A stretch of DNA of 64,000 nucleotides, from positions 1 through 64,000 of the forward strand of contig JAKLJW010000018.1 of the NCBI GenBank assembly GCA_023150935.1, read 5' to 3'. This document shows, in pieces, positions 16,949-25,988 of the stretch. Within the stretch, counting starts at the first letter, position 1, and every line of letters begins with the position of its first letter. This DNA comes from Candidatus Binatia bacterium. Its GTDB lineage: Bacteria > Desulfobacterota > Binatia > HRBIN30. The translations under genes were made by a program, and so were the position numbers. Under the pieces are notes generated by a model. It was not told where the DNA came from. It did not search any database and saw only the letters and a program-made list of their open reading frames with translations.

Positions 16949-17062
16949 GGTTCCGGCCGAGTTCTCTCCGGCGCCGAACCCGCTCCGCACTCGCTGCCGC
17001 GGTCTAAGTGCTCTGGTTCATGAATTCGCCAACGTATTCTGCATGATGCGACCCGCTCACCC

Positions 17063-17232
17063 TGAGCCTCCAGGGAATCGTTCTTACCAACATGTTGAGA
17101 GAGGTAGGCGCGCAGGAAATCGGATGGGGAGGGCGAGGCTCCAGCCGAGCCGTCGTCAGGCCGTTGCGGCTCGGCGGGCGCCTCGCCCTCCCGAAGGCAT
17201 GGCTGAGCCTCCAGGGGATCGTTCTTACCAAC
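17063..17232. repeat. 29-bp direct repeats flanking a 110-bp repeat copy
   Basis: A 29-bp sequence at 17063-17091 recurs at 17204-17232 with one mismatch (A/G in the middle). Between and partly overlapping them lies copy 1 of the 110-bp dispersed repeat. The arrangement looks like an insertion with a long target duplication, or an unequal-exchange scar. Confidence 0.75.
17097..17206 (+). repeat. Dispersed 110-bp palindromic repeat, copy 1
   Basis: Identical to 25879-25988 except for 5 substitutions over 110 bp. The centre folds into a hairpin: GGGAGGGCGAGGC at about 17128 pairs with GCCTCGCCCTCCC near 17180, and GCCGAGCCG pairs with CGGCTCGGC inside it. It codes for nothing recognisable and looks like a non-autonomous or REP-like element. 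Confidence 0.8.
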
Positions 17233-17236
17233 GCCC

Positions 17237-17284
17237 CCGCGGCGCGTGCTCGCGCGCCCGAACCTTTCAGTGGATGGCGGTGGC
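17237..17284 (+). repeat. 48-bp fragment of the IS transposase gene
   Basis: Perfect 48-bp match to 24499-24546, the part of the DDE transposase gene that encodes RGACSRARTFQWMAVA. It is in the frame that runs into the integrase remnant. Perfect identity implies a recent copy or deletion event involving the same IS type. Confidence 0.85.
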
Positions 17285-17285
17285 C

Positions 17286-17830
17286 GGCATCCAACGCACG
17301 GCAGAACCCACGTTCCGCGATGTCGCACAGGTATTCGAGAACGAGTATGGCGTCCTCACGCTCGGCGAACGAAGTCCGCGCTGGGTAGAAGGCCACGCGA
17401 TTCGACTTCGCCTACACCTCCTGCCTTTTTTCGGCGACCTTCCGATCTCCAAAGTCACCTCCGGCAAAGTGCGGGAGTACAGGGTCATGCGCATGACCCC
17501 ACGGACCGAGAAAAGCCCCCACGCGCGCGACAACCGTCCGTTCAAGTCAACGACGCCTGCGAGGAAGACGCTGCACAACGAAATCATCACGCTACGGCAC
17601 GTGCTCAAAACCGCCGTTCGTCACGAATGGCTCGATTCGCTCCCGGACCTTGCGCTGCCTTACAAGGCTCAAACCAAAGTCGGGCACCGCGCCTGGTTCA
17701 GCCCCGCCGAATACAAGCAACTCTATGAAGCCACGCGTGCGTATGAGCACGTCTCCCGTGAGCGTTATTTCCGAGCAGTCAATTTTCCACGTGCCCGCCC
17801 GTATCTGCCCGATTTCGTCAGGGTTCAACA
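17286..17830 (+). pseudogene. Tyrosine recombinase (phage integrase) remnant
   Basis: The frame holds an Arm/core-binding region: FRDVAQVFENEYG, then RLRLHLLPFFGDLPISKVTSGKVREYR, followed by a linker TLHNEIITLRHVLKTAVRHEWL and HRAWFSPAEYKQLYEATR. These match the N-terminal SAM-like domain and first part of tyrosine recombinases. The catalytic half (R...HxxR...Y) is absent: similarity stops near 17830, about 30 bp before the convergent hipA-like gene ends. Upstream the frame fuses to repeat DNA and the transposase fragment. It is a dead relic marking the edge of the island. Confidence 0.75.
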
Positions 17831-17856
17831 TTCCGTCGCGCGAGTGCAGTCAGCAG

Positions 17857-19695
17857 TTATCCGAACGCCTCGACCCGCCGCCGGCACAGGTCGAGGACCT
17901 GGCTTGCTGCCTTCTCACTGGTCTGTTCGTAGTGCAGCCCCTTTGGCAGCACGACGCGATCCAGCGCAAGCGCGAGCTGCTTCAGCATCGCGTCGATTGC
18001 CGCATCCGCATCGCTCACTTTTAGGCCAACGGTGCTTGCGAAGGTGCGGAAATCTCCGCGATCGAGATTATCGTCTTTGCCGCTCAGCTTGAGCGCAAGA
18101 CGATCCTTGTCGAGGCGCGGAAAGACGCGCGTGGTGAGCGCATCATACAACGGGGCCATCCGGACGATCCTAAACGTCGTGTCGCCCGATCCCGCGGTCT
18201 TCAGCAGGGCCATGTTCTTCAGATGCATGTCGCCATCGGCAACCAGCCACGCAAACAGCGCCCGCTTCAGAATGATCAAAATGTCCTCTTCTGGTTCGGT
18301 CGAAAGCGGACGCACTGCGCGGGCGACGCGCTCCATTGTCGCGCTGTATTTCGCGTCGGGGGAGAGATCCAGCACGGAGCACAAATCTTCGAGCGCCAGC
18401 ATGCGCTTGTCGTCGAGCGCATCGCGAATATCGAACCGCTCGACGATGAGAGCGGGGGGCATCCCGTCGGGCATCTTGACGAGCGCCGTCGACGGCACTG
18501 CCAACCCCGCAGCTCTTCCAAGCTCCATCCCGAGCCATTCGACAACGGGAAGAGCCTCGAACCCGCTTGTTCCGGCAGGTTTCAGAATATGCGTGAATGG
18601 TTTCCCCGTGCTCGGCGCGAGCGTTCCCGCCGGGTCGAGATACATCGGAGCCTTGATTTGAACCCCCGACAACCGCGGCGTGTCCGCGCGCGCATAAAGC
18701 TCTGCAAGGTTTTGTTCGAAGCTGTGTTCGAGGTCGCCACGTCCCGGCCCGTGATACTGCCCGGTGAAAGTGCCGTCCTTCGTGTACGCCTCAAGCCGCG
18801 TCAGCAAAATGTCCGGTGGCAACCCCGCCAACTCGCTTTCACGCTCCACGACGCTGATGTTTGACATGTAGCGTTTGCCTGATCGCAGCAACGCGCGCTC
18901 GTCCTGATCCTTCAGCACACGTTCCAGCCACCCTTCCGGGAGCAGCGAAACGATGAAGGGCGGCAACTTACCCGGCGTCGTCTGCCGCACCAGCGGAAGG
19001 CTGCCGCCATCCAGCGGCTTCCATCGCCACTCGAAGCCGTCGTGCGTGAGATGACCGATGGGCGCACCATGCCAGGCGACGATCAAGTCCAGTGCGGCGA
19101 GGTTCTTCGCATTCTGGATATGCGACAGCCGGACAAGGAACCGCTCGGCCAGCTCGCCTTCACGGTTCCAGCCGTTCTCTCGCGCGAGAGCCCAGACCGC
19201 GTCCGCTGCAGCGTGCGCGCTCCCGTATTCCTCGACCAAGCGGGCGGCGGTTGTCTCCCGCATCGTTTCGTCAATGGCGCTGGCGTGTTCGCTCCTCAGC
19301 CGGAACGCCTCTAGAAAGCGCTGTCGCATGGATGAGACGTTGACTCGGAATTCTCCCATGCCGTCATCGATGACCGCTTCGGCGATGGACGGATGTTTGG
19401 GCGCTGCGTTTTGGATGATCTCCAGCGCCCGAATGCGCGTGCGCTGAATCCGTCGGCCGCTCAGAAAAAGCCGCCCGTCGCGGGTCGGCGCGAGAAGGGC
19501 GGCGCTTGCGCCGGACAAAAACGCCTTCGGATAGAGGTATTTCGCAATACGGACGGCGTGCTTCAGGATGGTCGCTTCGACCTCATCATGGGCGTCGACA
19601 TAGATGCCCCGCATCAGCTGTACGAGCCTTCCTGTCTCGACGAGGTAGTAGCTTCGGTCCTTGTCTATGTTCTCGCCAACCAGGTGCAGGGCCAT
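17857..19695 (-). CDS. HipA-type kinase fused to an AbiEi-like N-terminal domain
   Basis: 612 residues from ATG 19695. The N-terminal third is an AbiEi-like antitoxin/regulator domain (YYLVETGRLVQLMRGIYV wing, then LYPKAFLSGASA). The C-terminal part is a HipA Ser/Thr kinase: ALPVVEWLGMELGRAAGLAVP, IVERFDIRDA and the catalytic GDMHLKN loop, followed by MAPLYDALTTR. Such kinases phosphorylate aminoacyl-tRNA synthetases or similar targets. A separate HipB gene is not seen, so the fused domain may take its place. In-frame starts exist up to 19842, but a palindrome at 19711-19723 sits where an operator would for 19695. Confidence 0.83.
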   Translation of the reverse strand: MALHLVGENIDKDRSYYLVETGRLVQLMRGIYVDAHDEVEATILKHAVRIAKYLYPKAFLSGASAALLAPTRDGRLFLSGRRIQRTRIRALEIIQNAAPKHPSIAEAVIDDGMGEFRVNVSSMRQRFLEAFRLRSEHASAIDETMRETTAARLVEEYGSAHAAADAVWALARENGWNREGELAERFLVRLSHIQNAKNLAALDLIVAWHGAPIGHLTHDGFEWRWKPLDGGSLPLVRQTTPGKLPPFIVSLLPEGWLERVLKDQDERALLRSGKRYMSNISVVERESELAGLPPDILLTRLEAYTKDGTFTGQYHGPGRGDLEHSFEQNLAELYARADTPRLSGVQIKAPMYLDPAGTLAPSTGKPFTHILKPAGTSGFEALPVVEWLGMELGRAAGLAVPSTALVKMPDGMPPALIVERFDIRDALDDKRMLALEDLCSVLDLSPDAKYSATMERVARAVRPLSTEPEEDILIILKRALFAWLVADGDMHLKNMALLKTAGSGDTTFRIVRMAPLYDALTTRVFPRLDKDRLALKLSGKDDNLDRGDFRTFASTVGLKVSDADAAIDAMLKQLALALDRVVLPKGLHYEQTSEKAASQVLDLCRRRVEAFG

Positions 19696-19710
19696 TTTTC
19701 CGATCTTCCA

Positions 19711-19723
19711 GTATCTCAGATAC
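19711..19723. promoter_or_regulatory. Perfect 13-bp palindrome upstream of the AbiEi-HipA gene
   Basis: GTATCTCAGATAC reads the same on both strands apart from its centre base and ends 16 bp from ATG 19695. It is placed for autoregulation by the fused winged-helix domain and supports this start over longer ones. No binding data. Confidence 0.5.
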
Positions 19724-19869
19724 GCGATAGTAGCAGCCTGGCAGCAATTCTCCAATGGATTCCGATGATCACGTGGGTGAGATACGTGAAGATCGGACAA
19801 CCAAGGTTGCCAAACGCCGTTGACATTGTCGGCTATTTCCATAATACTTCCTGACATCAAGGGGCACCG

Positions 19870-20436
19870 ATGAGCGACGGACCCCACCGAAGTCTGCCAA
19901 TGACCAGGGCCTGGAAGAAGGTTGCCGAGCGCGCAGACAACGCCGCATGCTCTCCCGAGGAGATCCGGGACGCGATCCTTCCGGCGCTGGCACACGACTG
20001 GAGCCGCGACATCCCTCACGCCTTCCTTCAAGGCATCGAGGCTGTCTCGCGCGAGCAGCCGGGCCTTTTCCCGGACCAGAAGCTCTCTCGACTCGAGTCG
20101 CTCCAGCCGATCACTGCTGGTCACGGCCTCGCCAGGCTCGTACTCGATTGCGCCATCGAACATGCAGCGTCGACTGGGGATGCAAGCGACCTTTCCCTCG
20201 ATGCCGTGAGCAGCGCACTCGCTATTCGCGCCGCGCGCGGTGCTCACCAGGTGGAGGAACACTATTGCCGTAAATCAACCGGCCCACGCGCGCAGAGGGT
20301 CCGCTCCGGCATCGAAGACGGGATCGCGATCGCGCCCATCCAGGACCTCGCGCGTCAGCTCCTGAAACGCGATTCCGCGCCTGCCCCGCGGAGCGCGCCG
20401 AAGAAACGCGGGATCGACGAAGGAGTGAAGCTATGA
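19870..20436 (+). CDS. Unknown 188-residue protein, first gene of the QueC-like operon
   Basis: I do not recognise this protein. It is mostly helical and soluble, without signal or membrane segments; notable stretches are WSRDIPHAFLQGIEAVSRE, a central LDAVSSALAIRAARGAHQVEEHY and a basic C-terminus (APKKRG). GGGG of AAGGGGCACCG provides a modest ribosome site before ATG 19870. Its stop overlaps the QueC-like start (ATGA 20433-20436), so the two products are made in step and probably act together, for example as substrate and modifying enzyme. That pairing is inference. Confidence 0.7.
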   Translation: MSDGPHRSLPMTRAWKKVAERADNAACSPEEIRDAILPALAHDWSRDIPHAFLQGIEAVSREQPGLFPDQKLSRLESLQPITAGHGLARLVLDCAIEHAASTGDASDLSLDAVSSALAIRAARGAHQVEEHYCRKSTGPRAQRVRSGIEDGIAIAPIQDLARQLLKRDSAPAPRSAPKKRGIDEGVKL

Positions 20437-21806
20437 GCGCTGCGGCACCAGACATCCTCGCCCCGCATCCGCATCTGAGCGTCGCGGTCATTGAAGCCGG
20501 GGGACGCCCGCCGCGGTCTTCGCTTCCGTGCGTGATCGGGGAGAACGTGCGCTTTTCGACCGAAAGCCTTGAGTCGTATTTCTTCGCCCGCTGGGAACCT
20601 GTCGCTTACGATGCGCTCCTTGTCGCGGCGGCGGTGGAGTTTTGCGATCGAACTCAACACCGCCCGGCCTTCGCGTGGGGGCGGGAGTTCGAGCTGTGTG
20701 TCCCCGTCCACGATCCTGACCGCTGGAACCAAAAGCCTGTTGGCAACACGCTGCACGACGCGTTGAATTGTCTGACCGGCGATCGCTGGAGCATCAGCTT
20801 TTGCCCCCGCAAAGCTCCGCTCGACCCACCGCGCCAGGTTCAGTTTCCGCTCAGCCCCAACGTGTCAGCGGTGATGCCTTTCAGCGATGGGCTGGATTCC
20901 CGCGCCGTCGCCGGACTGATGGCGCGCGAGCTCGGCGACAAGCTGATCCGCATCCGCCTCGGCCACACGCTGTCGCCTCCCAAGCAGCCCTTCACCGCCG
21001 TCCCGTACAAAGTCGTGCGCGGGAAGCGCGCGTTCGTCGAATCAAGCGCACGCGCGCGCGGGTTCAAGTTCGCGCTCATCGCGGGCATCGCCGCGCATTT
21101 CGCGAACGCCAATCAGATCATTCTTTCCGAAAGCGGCCAGGGGGCTCTGGGACCCGCCTTGCTGCCCGTGGGACAGGCGTATGAGGATTATCGCACCCAT
21201 CCGCTCTTCACCGCGCACATGGAGCAGTTTCTAGCCGCGATCCTCGGATGCCGCGTTTCGTTCAAGTTCCCGCAGCTGTGGCACGCGAAGGGGGAGACGC
21301 TCTCCCGCTTCGTCCGCAAATGTGCGGGCGGGTCTTGGGCACAGACGTGGTCATGTTGGCAGCAGGCGCGGCAGGTCAGCGTGGACCAGAAAAAGCGTCA
21401 GTGTGGTATCTGCGCCGCCTGCATGCTCCGTCGCCTGAGCATCCACGCCGCGGGTCTCACGGAATCAAGGAGCACCTACGTCTGGGAGGATCTTGGCGCG
21501 GCAACCTTTGAAGCCGGCGCCGCCGCCAGCTTCGACAACAGGAAGATCACGCGGGCGATGCGCGAATATGCCATCGCCGGCACTTTGCACCTCGACCATC
21601 TCGCGGCGCTGGCGCATTCACCCGCCAACGCGAGAGTTCTCGCGCTCAATGCCGCTCAGCTCAGCCAATCGTGCAACCTGGCGCTCACCGATACGCGCCA
21701 GCGGCTTGATCGCCTGCTCGCGCAGCACGAGAGCGAGTGGAAATCATTCATGGAATCCCTCGGATCCAACTCCTTTGTCGCCCATTGGGCAATTCACGAC
21801 CGATGA
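20433..21806 (+). CDS. QueC-like PP-loop ATPase (QatC/Cap9-type)
   Basis: 457 residues. A poorly conserved N-terminal region of about 140 residues precedes a PP-loop domain with SDGLDS (151-156, a variant of SGGxDS), an ESGQGALG segment (233-240) and a KFPQLWHAKGE segment (279-288). Near the C-terminus Cys308 and CGICAAC (Cys324, 327, 330) make the zinc site of QueC, the 7-cyano-7-deazaguanine synthase. It is longer than QueC (about 230) and stands without other queuosine genes. QueC-like proteins of Qat and type IV CBASS defence systems have this form. The stop overlaps the next start (ATGA). Confidence 0.82.
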   Translation: MSAAAPDILAPHPHLSVAVIEAGGRPPRSSLPCVIGENVRFSTESLESYFFARWEPVAYDALLVAAAVEFCDRTQHRPAFAWGREFELCVPVHDPDRWNQKPVGNTLHDALNCLTGDRWSISFCPRKAPLDPPRQVQFPLSPNVSAVMPFSDGLDSRAVAGLMARELGDKLIRIRLGHTLSPPKQPFTAVPYKVVRGKRAFVESSARARGFKFALIAGIAAHFANANQIILSESGQGALGPALLPVGQAYEDYRTHPLFTAHMEQFLAAILGCRVSFKFPQLWHAKGETLSRFVRKCAGGSWAQTWSCWQQARQVSVDQKKRQCGICAACMLRRLSIHAAGLTESRSTYVWEDLGAATFEAGAAASFDNRKITRAMREYAIAGTLHLDHLAALAHSPANARVLALNAAQLSQSCNLALTDTRQRLDRLLAQHESEWKSFMESLGSNSFVAHWAIHDR

Positions 21807-22987
21807 CCACGCCGCTCGACGACATCTCCGCCACCGAAGTCGGCGAACGCCTGCGCCTCGCCCGCGAAAGCGCCGGCATCAAGCAGTCCGAAGCCGCAAC
21901 GGCCATCTCAGTTGCGCGCACGACACTGATCGCGATCGAACAGGGGCAACGCCGCGTCCGCATGAACGAGCTGCAGCAGCTTGCGCGGCTGTACGGCACC
22001 TCCGTGAACGCGCTGTTACGGCGCGAAGCCGTCCACGTGGACCTCACGCCGCGGTTTCGCAAACTCTTCATCAGCACCGCACGGGCGGAGGATGAGGCGG
22101 CACAATTGCTCTCCAATCTCGCCAAGGCCGAAGTCGAGCTGGAGAATCTCCTGGGCGTGAAGCGCCCGCGGAACTATCCGCCCGAGCGACCGCTTCTTCC
22201 GGGAGATGTCCGGGCACAGGCGGAACAAGACGCCGCGGAACTGCGCCAGCGTCTTGGTCTCGGTATCCGGCCCGTTGAGGACATCGTCAAGCTGCTGGAA
22301 CTCGAACTCGGTGTTCGCGTCTACGTCCGCAGGTTCGATGGCCGCATCTCGGGATTGTTCGGCTACGACGAAGCGCTGGGCGCCTGCATCTTGCTGAACG
22401 CCAATCATCCGCGTGACCGCCGCACGCAAACCGCCGCGCACGAAACCGGACACCTGGTGGCCGACCGTCGCAAGCCGGAGATCCTGCACGTCGACGCGCC
22501 GGAGACTTCCCGCGAAGAGCGCTATGCCAGCGCCTTCGGCCGCGCCTTCCTCACGCCCGCGCGCGCCGTGATGCAGAAGTTCCAGGATGTGACCGCCGGC
22601 TCGGACGTATTGACGCGCCGTCACGTCATCGTGCTGGCGCACTTCTTCGGCGTGTCGCGCGAAGCCCTGGTCCGCCGGCTGGAGGAATTGAAGCTCGCCA
22701 AAACGGGGACGTGGGATTGGTTCCAGGACAACGGCGGCATCACGGACGACCAGGAGCGTCAGGTGCTAGGCGACCTCAGCGCGCCTGACGCGCAGAAGGC
22801 GGACGCGGATCGCCCGACGACGCTGCGCCTCAACATGCTCGCAGGCGAGGCCTATCGCCGGAATCTTTTGAGCGAGGGACAGCTTGCGCGTCTCTTGCAA
22901 CTCGACCGCGTCGAGCTGCGCGAGATCCTGGACCGGCTGGAGATGGAAGGGAGCGGGGCGGTCGGTGTCCCTCACGTGCTTGACTGA
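21803..22987 (+). CDS. HTH (XRE) - ImmA/IrrE metallopeptidase
   Basis: 394 residues. An N-terminal XRE helix-turn-helix (about 12-66, ERLRLARESAGIKQSEAA) is followed by a COG2856 zinc peptidase domain with HETGH at 213-217 and downstream FLTPARAV, as in ImmA/IrrE proteins. A C-terminal helical tail follows. Such proteins sense stress and cleave or relieve a repressor, or act as antitoxins of a nuclease encoded next to them. ATGA overlap with the QueC-like gene and a 23-bp overlap with the PIN gene put it in the middle of one coupled operon, as probable regulator. Confidence 0.88.
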   Translation: MTTPLDDISATEVGERLRLARESAGIKQSEAATAISVARTTLIAIEQGQRRVRMNELQQLARLYGTSVNALLRREAVHVDLTPRFRKLFISTARAEDEAAQLLSNLAKAEVELENLLGVKRPRNYPPERPLLPGDVRAQAEQDAAELRQRLGLGIRPVEDIVKLLELELGVRVYVRRFDGRISGLFGYDEALGACILLNANHPRDRRTQTAAHETGHLVADRRKPEILHVDAPETSREERYASAFGRAFLTPARAVMQKFQDVTAGSDVLTRRHVIVLAHFFGVSREALVRRLEELKLAKTGTWDWFQDNGGITDDQERQVLGDLSAPDAQKADADRPTTLRLNMLAGEAYRRNLLSEGQLARLLQLDRVELREILDRLEMEGSGAVGVPHVLD

Positions 22988-23636
22988 CCCCGCGGCCGTC
23001 GCCGTCGCTGATGCGAGCGCCGTCATCAATCTGAACGCGACGGGCTGCGCAACAGACATTGTTGCCGCGCTACCCAATCGGGTCGTTGTCGTCGACATTG
23101 TGCCCCAAGAACTGGAGAGGGGACGCGAGAGAGACCGCAAGGATGCCGATCAACTCAACGCCCTTGCAGCCGGCGGCGCCATCGAGATCGTCCGCCTCGG
23201 CGACACAGCGCTTGAGTACTTTGAAGGGTTCGTCGTCGGTCCGGCAGCCGACACGCTCGACGACGGCGAGGCCGCGACGATCGCTTATGCGCTTGCGCAA
23301 GTCGCGATACCTCTGATTGACGAGCGCAAAGCGACGCGCCTTTGTGCTGAGCGGCATCCCGCGTTGCGGGTTGGCTGCACCGTCGACCTCTTCGCGCATC
23401 CGGAGGTGCTGCAACGTCTTGGCAGAGAGCCGCTGGCGAACGCCGTGTTCAACGCCCTCTTTCACGGGCGCATGCGCGTCTTTCCGCACCACCTTGAATG
23501 GGTGCTGGAACTCATCGGCACAGAGCGCGCAAGACGTTGCAGTAGTCTGCCTGCGGCGGTTCGTTGCCCGTCGCAAGGCTCGGCAACTGACGCATCGAAA
23601 TTCGAGCACTCCGCCTCGCGGCCGACAACGCGTTAA
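22965..23636 (+). CDS. PIN-domain nuclease (DUF3368-like)
   Basis: 223 residues from GTG 22965 (TTG 22980 also possible). The PIN pattern is visible: VADASAVINL with the first Asp, VVDIVPQELERG with Glu, DDGEAATIAYA, and PLIDERKATRLC. This matches PIN proteins of the DUF3368 kind that pair with HTH-ImmA partners. The C-terminal 40 residues are low-complexity and may be a frame extension. It is the last gene of the operon and the probable effector (RNase). Convergent with the minus-strand gene at 23689. Confidence 0.78.
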   Translation: MSLTCLTDPAAVAVADASAVINLNATGCATDIVAALPNRVVVVDIVPQELERGRERDRKDADQLNALAAGGAIEIVRLGDTALEYFEGFVVGPAADTLDDGEAATIAYALAQVAIPLIDERKATRLCAERHPALRVGCTVDLFAHPEVLQRLGREPLANAVFNALFHGRMRVFPHHLEWVLELIGTERARRCSSLPAAVRCPSQGSATDASKFEHSASRPTTR

Positions 23637-23688
23637 AGAGAGCATTGGAAGATCTCGTGAGTACGGAGTTCTCCCAAGGTAGGTCGGC

Positions 23689-24057
23689 TCAGAGTGGGTC
23701 GTCGTAGGGTGTGGTCCACTGCTCGATCAACCGTTCGAACTCCTCCATCTGCTTTTCGTCCAGGCCCTCGGGCTCGTAGGTCATCTGGAGCCAGCCGACG
23801 ACATGAGACTGAAGCTGGTCGAGGGGTGCCCCGGACTGCGAATGAACTCTGCGGGCGGTGTCCTCGATGGATAGGCGTGCACCGTCTGGCCATATGATCC
23901 TCCGTTCGCGAGCATCCACGGACGCCCCCGCGAGCGCCTCGATGACTTCGAACAGTGCCTGCTCGGACTCGAAGAAGTCCGGGAAGTCGTCTCGCTCGCT
24001 CCGCACAATGTGATCTGGCCAGAGAGACGGTGGCGACCCCCGCGAACGTGCGCCCAT
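23689..24057 (-). CDS. Hypothetical acidic 122-residue protein
   Basis: Not recognised. The protein is acidic with a Trp-rich C-terminal half (HVVGWLQMTYEPEGLDEKQMEEFERLIEQW) and no signal peptide. It begins 31 bp downstream of the DUF6788 gene on the same strand, so the two probably form a small operon next to the IS element. Codon use resembles the neighbours. Confidence 0.55.
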   Translation of the reverse strand: MGARSRGSPPSLWPDHIVRSERDDFPDFFESEQALFEVIEALAGASVDARERRIIWPDGARLSIEDTARRVHSQSGAPLDQLQSHVVGWLQMTYEPEGLDEKQMEEFERLIEQWTTPYDDPL

Positions 24058-24087: not shown

Positions 24088-24399
24088 CTACCTCGATCTC
24101 TGCTGCATGGACAGCCGTGAGTATTCGATGCCCAGCGCCACCCATTTCGCGATCATCCTTTTGAGCTCCTTGTAGTCGCGCGTCTGCTGGCGAATCCCTT
24201 CGAGAAGGGAAGATCGGACGTACTCGGTCTTGCTCTTCATGCGGTGGGTATAGCTGATCTGGTAGTACGCACCCCGCCGGTTCCTGGGATCTTTATACTG
24301 CCGCGTGAGCGACCCCGGACGGACAACGCCGATCTTGGCGATTCGAGCCTTGATCACCGCGATCTCCTTCTCGATCTTTTTCAGCCGTCGTGCGTTCAT
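24088..24399 (-). CDS. DUF6788-type small basic protein
   Basis: 103 residues from ATG 24399, which has GAGAGGAGG directly upstream; ATG 24420 lacks a ribosome site. A coiled-coil start (KKIEKEIAVIKARIAKIG) is followed by RPGSLTRQYKDPRNRRGAYYQISY, KSKTEYVR and LKRMIAKWVALGIEYSRL, the layout of the DUF6788 family that is commonly found beside transposases. Function unknown. It is divergent from the DDE transposase, with a perfect palindrome between them. Confidence 0.75.
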   Translation of the reverse strand: MNARRLKKIEKEIAVIKARIAKIGVVRPGSLTRQYKDPRNRRGAYYQISYTHRMKSKTEYVRSSLLEGIRQQTRDYKELKRMIAKWVALGIEYSRLSMQQRSR

Positions 24400-24415
24400 C
24401 CTCCTCTCGTTGGAT

Positions 24416-24429
24416 AGCATATATATGCT
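24416..24429. promoter_or_regulatory. AT-rich 14-bp palindrome between divergent IS-linked genes
   Basis: AGCATATATATGCT is a perfect palindrome and by far the most AT-rich spot of its surroundings. It lies between the DUF6788 and transposase starts and could be an operator or a -10 region shared by divergent promoters. Confidence 0.45.
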
Positions 24430-24457
24430 GTACCACCAAGCGGCAGGAGGGTGGCGG

Positions 24458-25855
24458 ATGGTGCTGTGGCGGGAGTGGTGGAGGATCGTCGAAGGGCTCC
24501 GCGGCGCGTGCTCGCGCGCCCGAACCTTTCAGTGGATGGCGGTGGCGCTGGCCGGCCTGTGCGTCCGAGAGGATCTACTCGGCGTGACCAGCCTGGTGCG
24601 GGTCTTCGGCCTCGAGCGGGCCTGCTACATTCGGCTGCTCGACTTCTTCCACAGCAACGCCCTGGATCCCGAACGCCTCGCGTGCCAGTGGACCTCCCTG
24701 GTCCTGCGCCTCTTCCCGGACCTGCTGCGCGTGGGCGGCCGGCTCGTGCTGCTCGCCGACGGCATCAAGATCCCCAAGTCGGGACGCAAGATGCCCGCCG
24801 TCAAAAAACTCAAACAGGTCGAGAGCAACACCAAGCCGGCCTTCATCTTCGGCCACTCCTGCCAGGCGATCGCCGCCGTGGCTGGGGCTGAGAAGACGGC
24901 CTTTGCTGTGCCCCTGGCGGCGTGCATTCACGAGGGCGTGGTGTTCACCAACCGCGATCACCGCCGCCTGCCGGGCAAGCTCTTCTCGCTGCTCGGCAGC
25001 CTCGGGATCAACGAGCCGGTCACCCTCGTGGCCGATGCCTTTTACGCCTGCCGAGTTCTCGGCCTCGGACTGCTCGCCTGCGGCTCCCACCTGGTCTCGC
25101 GCGTCCGCAGCAACGCCGTCGCCTACCGCCCCGTAAAGCGTCACCCGCGCCGTCGCGGTCGCCCCCGACTCTACGGCACCAAAGTGCGGCTTCGCTCGCT
25201 GTTCGACGACCCCTCGGGCTGGCTCCAGGCGGATAGCCCCGTCTATGGAGAACGCAACGTCAAAATCCGATACCGTGTCGTCGATCTCATCTGGCGTCCC
25301 CTGCGGCGCCTGGTCCGCTTCGTCGCCGTCGAGCACCCCATCCGGGGCAAGCTCCTCCTGCTGTGCACGGATCTGGCGCTTGACCCCATCGATGTGATTC
25401 GCCTCTACGGCATCCGATTCAAGATCGAGCTCTCCTTCAAGCAAGCTCTGCGGGTCGTCGGGGCCTACGCCTACCACTTCTGGATGATGACCATGAAGCC
25501 GTTGTCCAGGCGCCGCTCAGGCAACCAGTTTCTCCATCGCGAAACCGACCGCTACCGTGCGGCCGTTCGACGAAAGATCGCCACCTATCACCGTCACATC
25601 CAACTCGGCCTCATCGCCCAGGGCCTGCTCCAGTACTTGGCGGTTCGGGCGCCGCGAACCGTCTGGGGCTGCTTCGGATCGTGGCTCCGAACGATCCGGC
25701 CCGGAATCCCACCTTCCGAGAAGGTCACCGGCATGGCACTGCGCCACGCTCTGCCCGAATTTCTCGCAGGCAGTGCCCCGGACCATGCCTTCGCGAAATT
25801 CCTACTCGACCGAATCGACCTCAACAGATACGAAGGCCTACGACTTGCCGGATAG
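24458..25855 (+). CDS. DDE transposase (IS4-like fold)
   Basis: 465 residues from ATG 24458, after GGCAGGAGGG. The catalytic triad is readable: LLADGIKIPKSGRKMP (first Asp), LVADAFYAC (second Asp) and YGIRFKIELSFKQ (Glu in the Y-x-x-R-F-x-I-E context). RTFQWMAVALAGLCVREDLLGV and RLLDFFHSNALD at the N-terminus are typical of this IS group. The frame is intact, so it may still be active. No clear terminal inverted repeats were found; copy 2 of the 110-bp repeat starts 23 bp after the stop. A 48-bp piece of the gene is found again at 17237. Confidence 0.88.
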   Translation: MVLWREWWRIVEGLRGACSRARTFQWMAVALAGLCVREDLLGVTSLVRVFGLERACYIRLLDFFHSNALDPERLACQWTSLVLRLFPDLLRVGGRLVLLADGIKIPKSGRKMPAVKKLKQVESNTKPAFIFGHSCQAIAAVAGAEKTAFAVPLAACIHEGVVFTNRDHRRLPGKLFSLLGSLGINEPVTLVADAFYACRVLGLGLLACGSHLVSRVRSNAVAYRPVKRHPRRRGRPRLYGTKVRLRSLFDDPSGWLQADSPVYGERNVKIRYRVVDLIWRPLRRLVRFVAVEHPIRGKLLLLCTDLALDPIDVIRLYGIRFKIELSFKQALRVVGAYAYHFWMMTMKPLSRRRSGNQFLHRETDRYRAAVRRKIATYHRHIQLGLIAQGLLQYLAVRAPRTVWGCFGSWLRTIRPGIPPSEKVTGMALRHALPEFLAGSAPDHAFAKFLLDRIDLNRYEGLRLAG

Positions 25856-25878
25856 AAGAGAACGCAAGACTCTCAAGT

Positions 25879-25988
25879 GAGAGAGGTGGACGCGCAGGAA
25901 ATCGGATGGGGAGGGCGAGGCTCCAGCCGAGCGGTCGTCAGGCCGTTACGGCTCGGCGGGAGCCTCGCCCTCCCGAAGGCATGGCTGA
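25879..25988 (+). repeat. Dispersed 110-bp palindromic repeat, copy 2
   Basis: Same orientation as 17097-17206 with 5 substitutions. Its inner hairpin arms are slightly better paired than in copy 1. It lies directly after the transposase gene, so it may be part of the IS end, or the favoured target of that IS. Confidence 0.8.

Follow-up and report, generated by a model that had tools for sequence, protein, structure and literature searches.

A conserved cassette of four coupled genes, carried on plasmids and in genomes, was found in a Candidatus Binatia genome (G000) and has the appearance of an anti-phage or toxin-antitoxin-type system not described before. The stretch analysed, hereafter the window, comprises 64,000 nucleotides (contig JAKLJW010000018.1, positions 1 to 64,000, forward strand). 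The genes, all on the plus strand, encode a small protein of 188 amino acids (g1, 19870-20436), a 457-residue relative of the enzyme QatC (g2, 20433-21806), a protein of 394 residues, counted from its ATG, that fuses a helix-turn-helix (HTH) domain to an ImmA/IrrE-type metallopeptidase (g3, 21803-22987), and a predicted PIN nuclease of 223 residues with a GTG start (g4, 22965-23636). We give roughly even chances to the cassette being a mobile, Qat-like conjugation system that acts through a PIN toxin under protease control; its conjugation reaction, its trigger and its protection against phages are what we infer from the genes and their relatives.

A preliminary description of the window had proposed a coupled four-gene operon at this place, and the open reading frames and their junctions bear it out. 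The g1/g2 and g2/g3 junctions are ATGA sequences at 20433 and 21803, g3 and g4 overlap by 23 bp (22965-22987), and the four genes are translationally coupled in the window. Elsewhere overlapping junctions are common, not universal, with small gaps between g2 and g3 in locus L013 and, as annotated, between g3 and g4 in L010. One terminator-like site was found on the plus strand, at 22844 within g3, which is no more than shuffled sequences give.

All four slots were occupied in the same order in each of the 24 loci examined, these being the window, a locus in Pseudohalocynthiibacter, 19 plasmid loci and 3 loci in further genomes. This recurrence excludes a chance arrangement. A single gene is frameshifted in each of two loci, g1 in L008 and g2 in L016. 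The only g2 relative in the named genome collection was that of Pseudohalocynthiibacter aestuariivivens (G058), where the four genes follow one another as in the window and g1 has the same first eleven residues. In the class of this organism (385 genomes) a full-length g2 (>600 bits) was present in 3 genomes, and in the phylum of the window (395 genomes) in 2 (653 and 567 bits); g1 was found in exactly these genomes, and g3 and g4 adjoin in all five. A partial g1 match in G247 (E 1e-5), lying in a frame of 534 amino acids without the g1 N-terminus, was judged to be due to chance.

The plasmid collection (72,556 records) yielded 91 records matching g2. Among the best 60 of these 91, the top 25 showed 36-56% identity, 24 of them covering at least 80% of g2, and the matches below them (28-33% identity over 57-73% of the query) were mostly annotated as qatC. 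The same 25 records stood apart with g3, at 50-73% identity, the next match down having 31.5% (48 matches in all). With g4, 26 records were matched, 25 of them being the g2/g3 set and the last, Microvirga sp. VF16, holding a lone PIN gene with no g1, g2 or g3 beside it. A single-sequence search with g1 retrieved 11 plasmid records, all among the 25. Nineteen of the 25 regions were fetched, leaving out H17-H19, H24, H25 and H30 as their hit rows duplicate fetched ones, and a true qat locus (L024) was used as control. Within the loci, window g1 as a single-sequence query (E 0.01) found a match in 12 besides the window, and in L016-L023 the g1 slot, recognised by position and size, holds a frame of 182-191 amino acids that starts with MTDGP in seven of the eight. 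Homologues of g1 and g2 apart from each other, or from the ImmA and PIN genes, had been named in advance as an observation that would speak against a single system; none turned up in the two genome sets or the 25 plasmid records. The four genes are a conserved unit that several bacterial groups have in their genomes or on plasmids. No g2 relative was detected in the viral contigs and phage records searched.

The surroundings of the cassette are suggestive of defence. An Abi, restriction, Shedu, Lit, reverse-transcriptase or toxin-antitoxin gene lies within about 5 kb in 10 of the 15 annotated plasmid loci (L005, L009, L010, L012, L013, L014, L018, L019, L021 and L023; not clearly in L006, L007, L015, L016 and L020), a count that has no random control. 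In L012, L013 and L014, all on Rhizobiaceae plasmids, a divergent trio of hypothetical genes of like sizes (approximately 1570-4320, minus strand) was seen just upstream of the cassette and could be another defence set.

By its sequence, g2 is a member of the QatC family in the wide sense, with a clade of its own beside QatC. It matched the QueC family PF06508 with 27.1 bits (cut-off 22), the PADLOC model of QatC at 8e-31 and the NCBIfam model at 1e-34, yet in the latter case with 120 bits against an equivalog cut-off of 280. Solved QatC chains were matched at 4e-16 (9vlk) and 4e-14, and profile-profile comparison gave 4.6e-34 over 319 columns for QatC and 5e-9 for QueC (hhalign). In a tree of 40 proteins the 21 g2 proteins included (all loci except L014, L016 and L021) formed one clade with a support of 98/99; the neighbouring group consisted of QatC and a third type of QatC relative (95/88), and QueC was placed far outside, separated by 100/100. 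The label "QueC-like" given to g2 in the preliminary description is too general and is better narrowed to the QatC family. Clustering with true QueC, the other outcome that had been named as speaking against a distinct system, was not observed. That g2 is a true QueC, and hence a queuosine gene, is ruled out by its length (457 against approximately 220 amino acids), by the tree and by the TIGR00364 score of 15.8 bits against a cut-off of 150.3. A published map of PF06508 places qatA and qatD beside only about one third of the QatC cluster, and in the text consulted makes no mention of an ImmA or PIN context (PMC13329287).

The g2 proteins appear from their alignment to be an active-site variant of their own. 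Along the gene (20433-21806, plus strand) a PP-loop ATPase, a YEDYR motif and a four-cysteine zinc site are predicted, with conserved columns in 20 sequences. When g2 was aligned to QueC by hhalign, Y250-E-D252-Y-R254 fell on Y-P-D-C-R; the Asp and Arg are present in 20 of 20 sequences and the Tyr in 19. This placement is by profile alignment only, the AlphaFold2 (AF2) model of g2, based on two sequences, having a predicted local distance difference test score (pLDDT) of 40 and not being used. The Tyr and Asp of YPDC read 7-deazaguanine in QueC and Cap9, and QatC has two Thr instead (PMC13279940). Eight aligned QatC proteins have an invariant S-T-R-T-x-H-P where g2, by alignment, has YxDxR; the T278 and T280 that replace the Tyr and Asp in QatC are not found in g2. 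The PP-loop reads S[DENK]GxDS in all 20 sequences, against the usual SGGxDS, and is S-D-G-L-D-S in the window. S151, G153, D155, S156, R207, R209, F211, D252, K286 and the four Cys are invariant in the 20 sequences.

The g1 protein belongs to no Pfam, PADLOC or NCBIfam family, its single match (13.9 bits) being meaningless. What marks it is its N-terminus. In 23 homologues (frameshifted L008 not included, L023 with its GTG start taken as M) the only invariant columns are M1, D3 and G4, and the protein begins with M(S/T)DGP in 22 of them. Mean information is 4.04 bits over residues 1-5, 2.06 over residues 12-172 and 2.87 over residues 181-188; P10 is found in 17 of 23, and W15 is well conserved (3.57 bits). 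Since the codons of the tip vary synonymously among loci, the constraint acts on the peptide, and a cause at the DNA level, such as an operator running into the gene, is ruled out. The AF2 model of g1 (pLDDT 81) has nine helices, with residues 1-7 and 173-188 below 50. The product of 19870-20436 (plus strand) is accordingly predicted to be an alpha-helical protein with a disordered N-tail, MSDGPHRSLPM, and is the probable substrate or partner of g2 and an analogue of QatB. In QatB, which has a disordered tail, the N-terminal MGTS and a stretch with conserved Pro16 and Trp18 are needed for defence (PMC13279940). A near-invariant tip on a divergent helical body is the layout of QatB, the putative substrate of QatC, and the near-invariant tip of g1 strengthens the earlier guess that the 188-residue protein is the conjugated partner, the conjugation itself being only inferred. 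If a small residue follows, the initiator Met is typically cleaved off (PMC13279940), so the exposed residue of g1 would be Ser or Thr. The C-terminus of g1 (20410-20433 in the window) is also conserved, with (D/E/Q)G(P/V) in most sequences and a nearly invariant Gly185 in a part of low model confidence, and may be a second recognition tail.

A comparable pair was seen with the third type of QatC relative (L070 345-2991, L071 5256-7863, L073 4779-7659, L075 4039-6904 and L082 4001-6645). Here too a QatC-like enzyme lies beside a small protein, of 260-270 amino acids, with a near-invariant start, MGHxRLGxLPxxxxW (LL for LP in L070); the partner in L073, the one scanned, had no PADLOC model. The pair differs from g1-g2 in the Gly after the Met, in enzymes of 615-707 amino acids with an extra C-terminal part and a TRTTHP-like active site, and in the four loci checked (L070, L071, L073 and L075) it has no g3 or g4 relative. 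More widely, six loci with other QatC relatives (L070-L075, part of those listed for the two genome sets) held, within the 9-12 kb retrieved, no g1, g3 or g4 match at E 0.01.

Both other products are what the preliminary description had taken them for. The g3 protein has an N-terminal Xre HTH and a Peptidase_M78 (ImmA/IrrE) domain by Pfam in all 24 members, with an invariant HExxH and distal Glu (H213, E214, H217 and E239 in 24 of 24), and is the best conserved of the four, with a mean column identity of 67% against 54% for g2, 45% for g4 and 42% for g1. Window g4 gave no Pfam PIN match at E 1; 9 of 23 members of its family matched PF01850 at E <=0.1 (best 1.5e-6), and window g4 matched the PADLOC model PDC-S70 at 1e-8. 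In an alignment without L068 the acidic residues E49, D100 and D119 are present in 23 of 23, and D16 in all 20 that reach this position. On these sequence features g4 is assigned as a PIN-domain nuclease.

Upstream of g1 an inverted repeat, TTGACATTGTC (19820..19830, plus strand), contains the -35 hexamer TTGACA. This hexamer opens a sigma-70-like promoter, TTGACA-17-AATACT (19820..19848, plus strand; 10 of 12 matches), the only promoter-like match in 19690-24000 (shuffled sequences: mean 0.4, standard deviation 0.5). Of the 24 loci, 22 (all but L011 and L023) have the core of the repeat, TGAC[AT](N)TGTC, in the 110 bp before g1, at 46-49 bases from the g1 start in 21 of them and at 77 bases in L069. 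When 110-bp stretches were drawn at random from these loci 300 times, the core occurred in 0.23 loci on average and in 3 at most. A second operator half-site, CTGACAT (19851..19857, plus strand), is located just upstream of the start region, near the ribosome-binding site, and 15 of 23 loci have this heptamer in the 113 bp ending with the g1 start codon, as against an average of 0.27 and at most 3 loci when random stretches were drawn 500 times. The operator is probably the target of the g3 HTH, since it is where the site of an autorepressor is expected and g3 is the sole recognised DNA-binding protein of the cassette. CapH-CapP and PprI-DdrO likewise combine an HTH with an ImmA-type metallopeptidase, and such published switches lift repression upon single-stranded DNA (PMC10904395); g3 differs in having HTH and protease in one protein, in an extra C-terminal part and in the genes under control.

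The g3-g4 half alone is a close fit to a kind of element proposed in 2009, the three-component toxin-antitoxin set in which an HTH-COG2856 (ImmA) fusion stands beside a PIN toxin (PMC2701414), with fusion and PIN gene in one operon in 24 loci. The whole cassette may be mainly such a toxin-antitoxin or element-maintenance module, g3 being antitoxin, repressor and protease, g4 the toxin and g1-g2 an added control arm, so that the plasmid or island would benefit and phage defence would be incidental. The self-contained promoter and operator fit this, as does the occurrence on 25 plasmid records, the plasmid collection being what was searched and giving no measure of preference. The C-terminal stretch of g3, moreover, weakly resembles UPF0175 (5 of 24 members, below the cut-off in the window), an antitoxin family found beside PIN genes (PMC2701414). 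Against it, neither g4 nor a g3 of at least 50% identity was found without g2 in the plasmid collection, save for the lone PIN gene, and in every one of the 24 loci g3-g4 stand together with the QatC-type enzyme and the partner of that enzyme. So strict a co-inheritance points to one function; we hold the module to be an unlikely yet serious reading, and one that is compatible with defence. The preliminary description had put the system forward as a candidate undescribed one. No description of the four genes as a unit was found in the titles and opening lines of abstracts of the papers listed from the open-licence literature (DefenseFinder models, supplements and subscription papers lay outside the search), and the claim is to be qualified for the ImmA-PIN half, which is of the kind proposed before (PMC2701414).

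A different division of labour would make g1 and g2 alone the immune unit, with g3 as a regulator only and g4 as a second-line effector or a range-widening accessory in the manner of QatA and QatD. QatB and QatC suffice against lambda vir (PMC13279940), and g3, the best conserved protein, has an operator at hand. Against a dispensable accessory speaks that g4 occurs in all 24 loci and keeps its acidic residues in each of the 23 sequences aligned, and we consider this division rather improbable.

A conjugation reaction would need a donor, for which the known candidate is 7-carboxy-7-deazaguanine (CDG). Its pathway was searched for in assemblies of several contigs, with one QueE model, and absences are provisional. 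G535 has QueC, QueD and QueE above the cut-offs, and G388 has QueC and QueD, likewise above them, together with a QueE-like match of 40 bits. In the window genome a QueD-family protein scored 76 bits, exceeding the Pfam cut-off, and a QueE-like match of 47 bits was under the cut-off, as is the match of 49 bits in QueC-bearing G415; in the window genome and its relatives G003, G007 and G012 a QueD-family protein is present and no QueC exceeded the cut-off. Tgt was found in all five cassette genomes.

Several observations tell against a Qat-like conjugation system with a protease-controlled toxin, one being that the UPF0175 match of g3 stays under its cut-off and is limited to 5 of 24 members. 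Neither QueD nor QueE matches, nor a QueC over the cut-off, were found in G058 and G538, which have intact cassettes; their weak QueC matches (21-27 bits) are led by g2 itself. CDG may thus be unavailable in these two, and with the pathway seemingly absent in hosts the donor would be other than CDG, salvaged or phage-supplied. The departure of the PP-loop from SGGxDS in 20 of 20 means that activity of g2 cannot be assumed, and the predicted exposed residue of g1 is Ser or Thr, against the Gly of QatB and of the CD-NTase. In L023, g1 begins with VRDGIW and breaks the rule of the tip. Comparison of the g1 and QatB profiles gave E 0.33, which is no similarity. In the list of fold matches the QatB chain 9y02_A came second, but with Z 4.6, a root-mean-square deviation of 5.0 and 132 aligned it cannot be told from unrelated helical proteins, and the fold search by Foldseek gave no g1 match under E 0.001. 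Likewise weak is the match of g1 to the partner of the third QatC type (hhalign E 0.004, probability 8.5%), centred on the tip and in register from residue 7. Homology of g1 to QatB by sequence found no support, as no comparison gave a match. The altered loop, with the second Gly replaced by D, E, N or K, and the two hosts apparently without a CDG pathway would suit a g2 that no longer conjugates and that, as a scaffold or ATP-dependent sensor, does no more than bind the tip of g1. The invariant loop, Arg, Phe, Lys, Cys and Asp residues of g2 would be unexpected in a dead enzyme, and this we regard as very improbable. QatC has lost the residues that read the nucleobase, and its own reaction could not be reconstituted (PMC13279940).

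Membership of qatABCD or of type IV cyclic-oligonucleotide-based antiphage signalling systems (CBASS) is ruled out by missing partner genes. With qatABCD the cassette shares a QatC-family enzyme with N- and C-terminal extensions and a small helical partner whose disordered, conserved N-terminus keeps P...W, in coupled genes. It differs in the separate clade of g2, its YxDxR and S[DENK]GxDS where QatC has TRTTHP, a g1 tip of M(S/T)DGP instead of MGTS, the lack of detectable g1-QatB homology, and an ImmA protease and a PIN nuclease in place of the KAP ATPase QatA and the TatD nuclease QatD. The absence of QatA, QatD and a cyclic-nucleotide synthase, claimed earlier, was confirmed, as Pfam, PADLOC and NCBIfam identified none of the four genes as a KAP ATPase, a TatD nuclease or a CD-NTase. 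In the 15 annotated plasmid loci no neighbouring gene bears the annotation QatA or QatD, and six of them (L007, L010, L018, L019, L020 and L023) have AAA or ATP-binding genes of unspecified kind near the cassette; the control L024 has qatD and a P-loop NTPase. In type IV CBASS, Cap9 joins CDG to the N-terminal Gly of the CD-NTase (PMC11996544, PMC13279940). Common to both is an enzyme of the QueC family whose neighbour is conserved at its extreme N-terminus, and g2 has a counterpart of the Tyr/Asp reader of Cap9, aligned through QueC rather than to Cap9 itself. The cassette differs in having four genes without a CD-NTase or the Cap10 transglycosylase, in a g2 about twice as long and in an acceptor that would be Ser or Thr.

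The flanks of the cassette in the window had been described as an island. A HipA_C gene (minus strand, 17857 to approximately 19695, start inferred) is divergent from g1 at a distance of about 174 bp and shares with g1 the intergenic region holding the operator; an N-terminal stretch of its product is weakly AbiEi-like (PADLOC 3e-4). On the other side is a DDE transposase frame of 516 amino acids (24305-25855; DDE_5, 8e-13). These two parts of the description stand. The "integrase relic", a frame at 17043-18092 that by eye only resembles a truncated tyrosine recombinase, had no Pfam match at 0.01, so that the argument for an island is carried by the transposase frame alone. A 55-nt repeat links 17230-17284 with 24492-24546. 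Two 111-nt copies (17096-17206 and 25878-25988; 95% identical, partly self-complementary) look like a family of the miniature inverted-repeat transposable element type, and were discarded as ends of an island because the repeat has 79 matches genome-wide.

If the cassette is a Qat-like conjugation system, it may work as follows: The HTH of g3 would sit on the TTGACATTGTC operator, a site read from the sequence, and keep the operon low; of the four steps this is the one we find most probable. It is also likely that g2, as an ATP-dependent ligase, would bind g1 and join a small carboxylate to its N-terminal amine, by analogy a 7-deazaguanine-type group on Ser2 or Thr2 after removal of the Met. 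A signal of infection or DNA damage, perhaps through conjugated g1, might then activate the ImmA protease of g3, which would cut itself or a partner, derepress the operon and free the PIN protein; here we see the chances as balanced. Finally, and with slightly better than even chances, g4 would cleave RNA and halt growth, thereby limiting the phage. In its most specific form this is a conjugation switch gating a toxin, in which g2 puts 7-deazaguanine on Ser2 or Thr2 of g1, conjugated g1 triggers g3 and the cut frees the PIN protein; in hosts that seemingly cannot produce CDG, the source of the donor could be phages that synthesise 7-deazaguanines for use in their DNA. We put this forward as a speculation with little chance of being right in full.

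If true, a donor supplied by phages would mean that the cassette senses the chemistry by which phages modify their bases. What the conjugate is can be tested directly, given the Ser/Thr tip and the hosts in which the CDG pathway seems to be lacking, and the g2 clade, with its reader-aligned YxDxR in the extended architecture of QatC, may be a tractable enzyme for studying deazaguanine conjugation outside CBASS. For the family at large a modular rule is suggested, in which QueC-family enzymes of immunity are combined with a small partner that has a near-invariant N-terminus (MGTS, MGGS, MGHxRLG or M(S/T)DGP) and the effectors may be exchanged.

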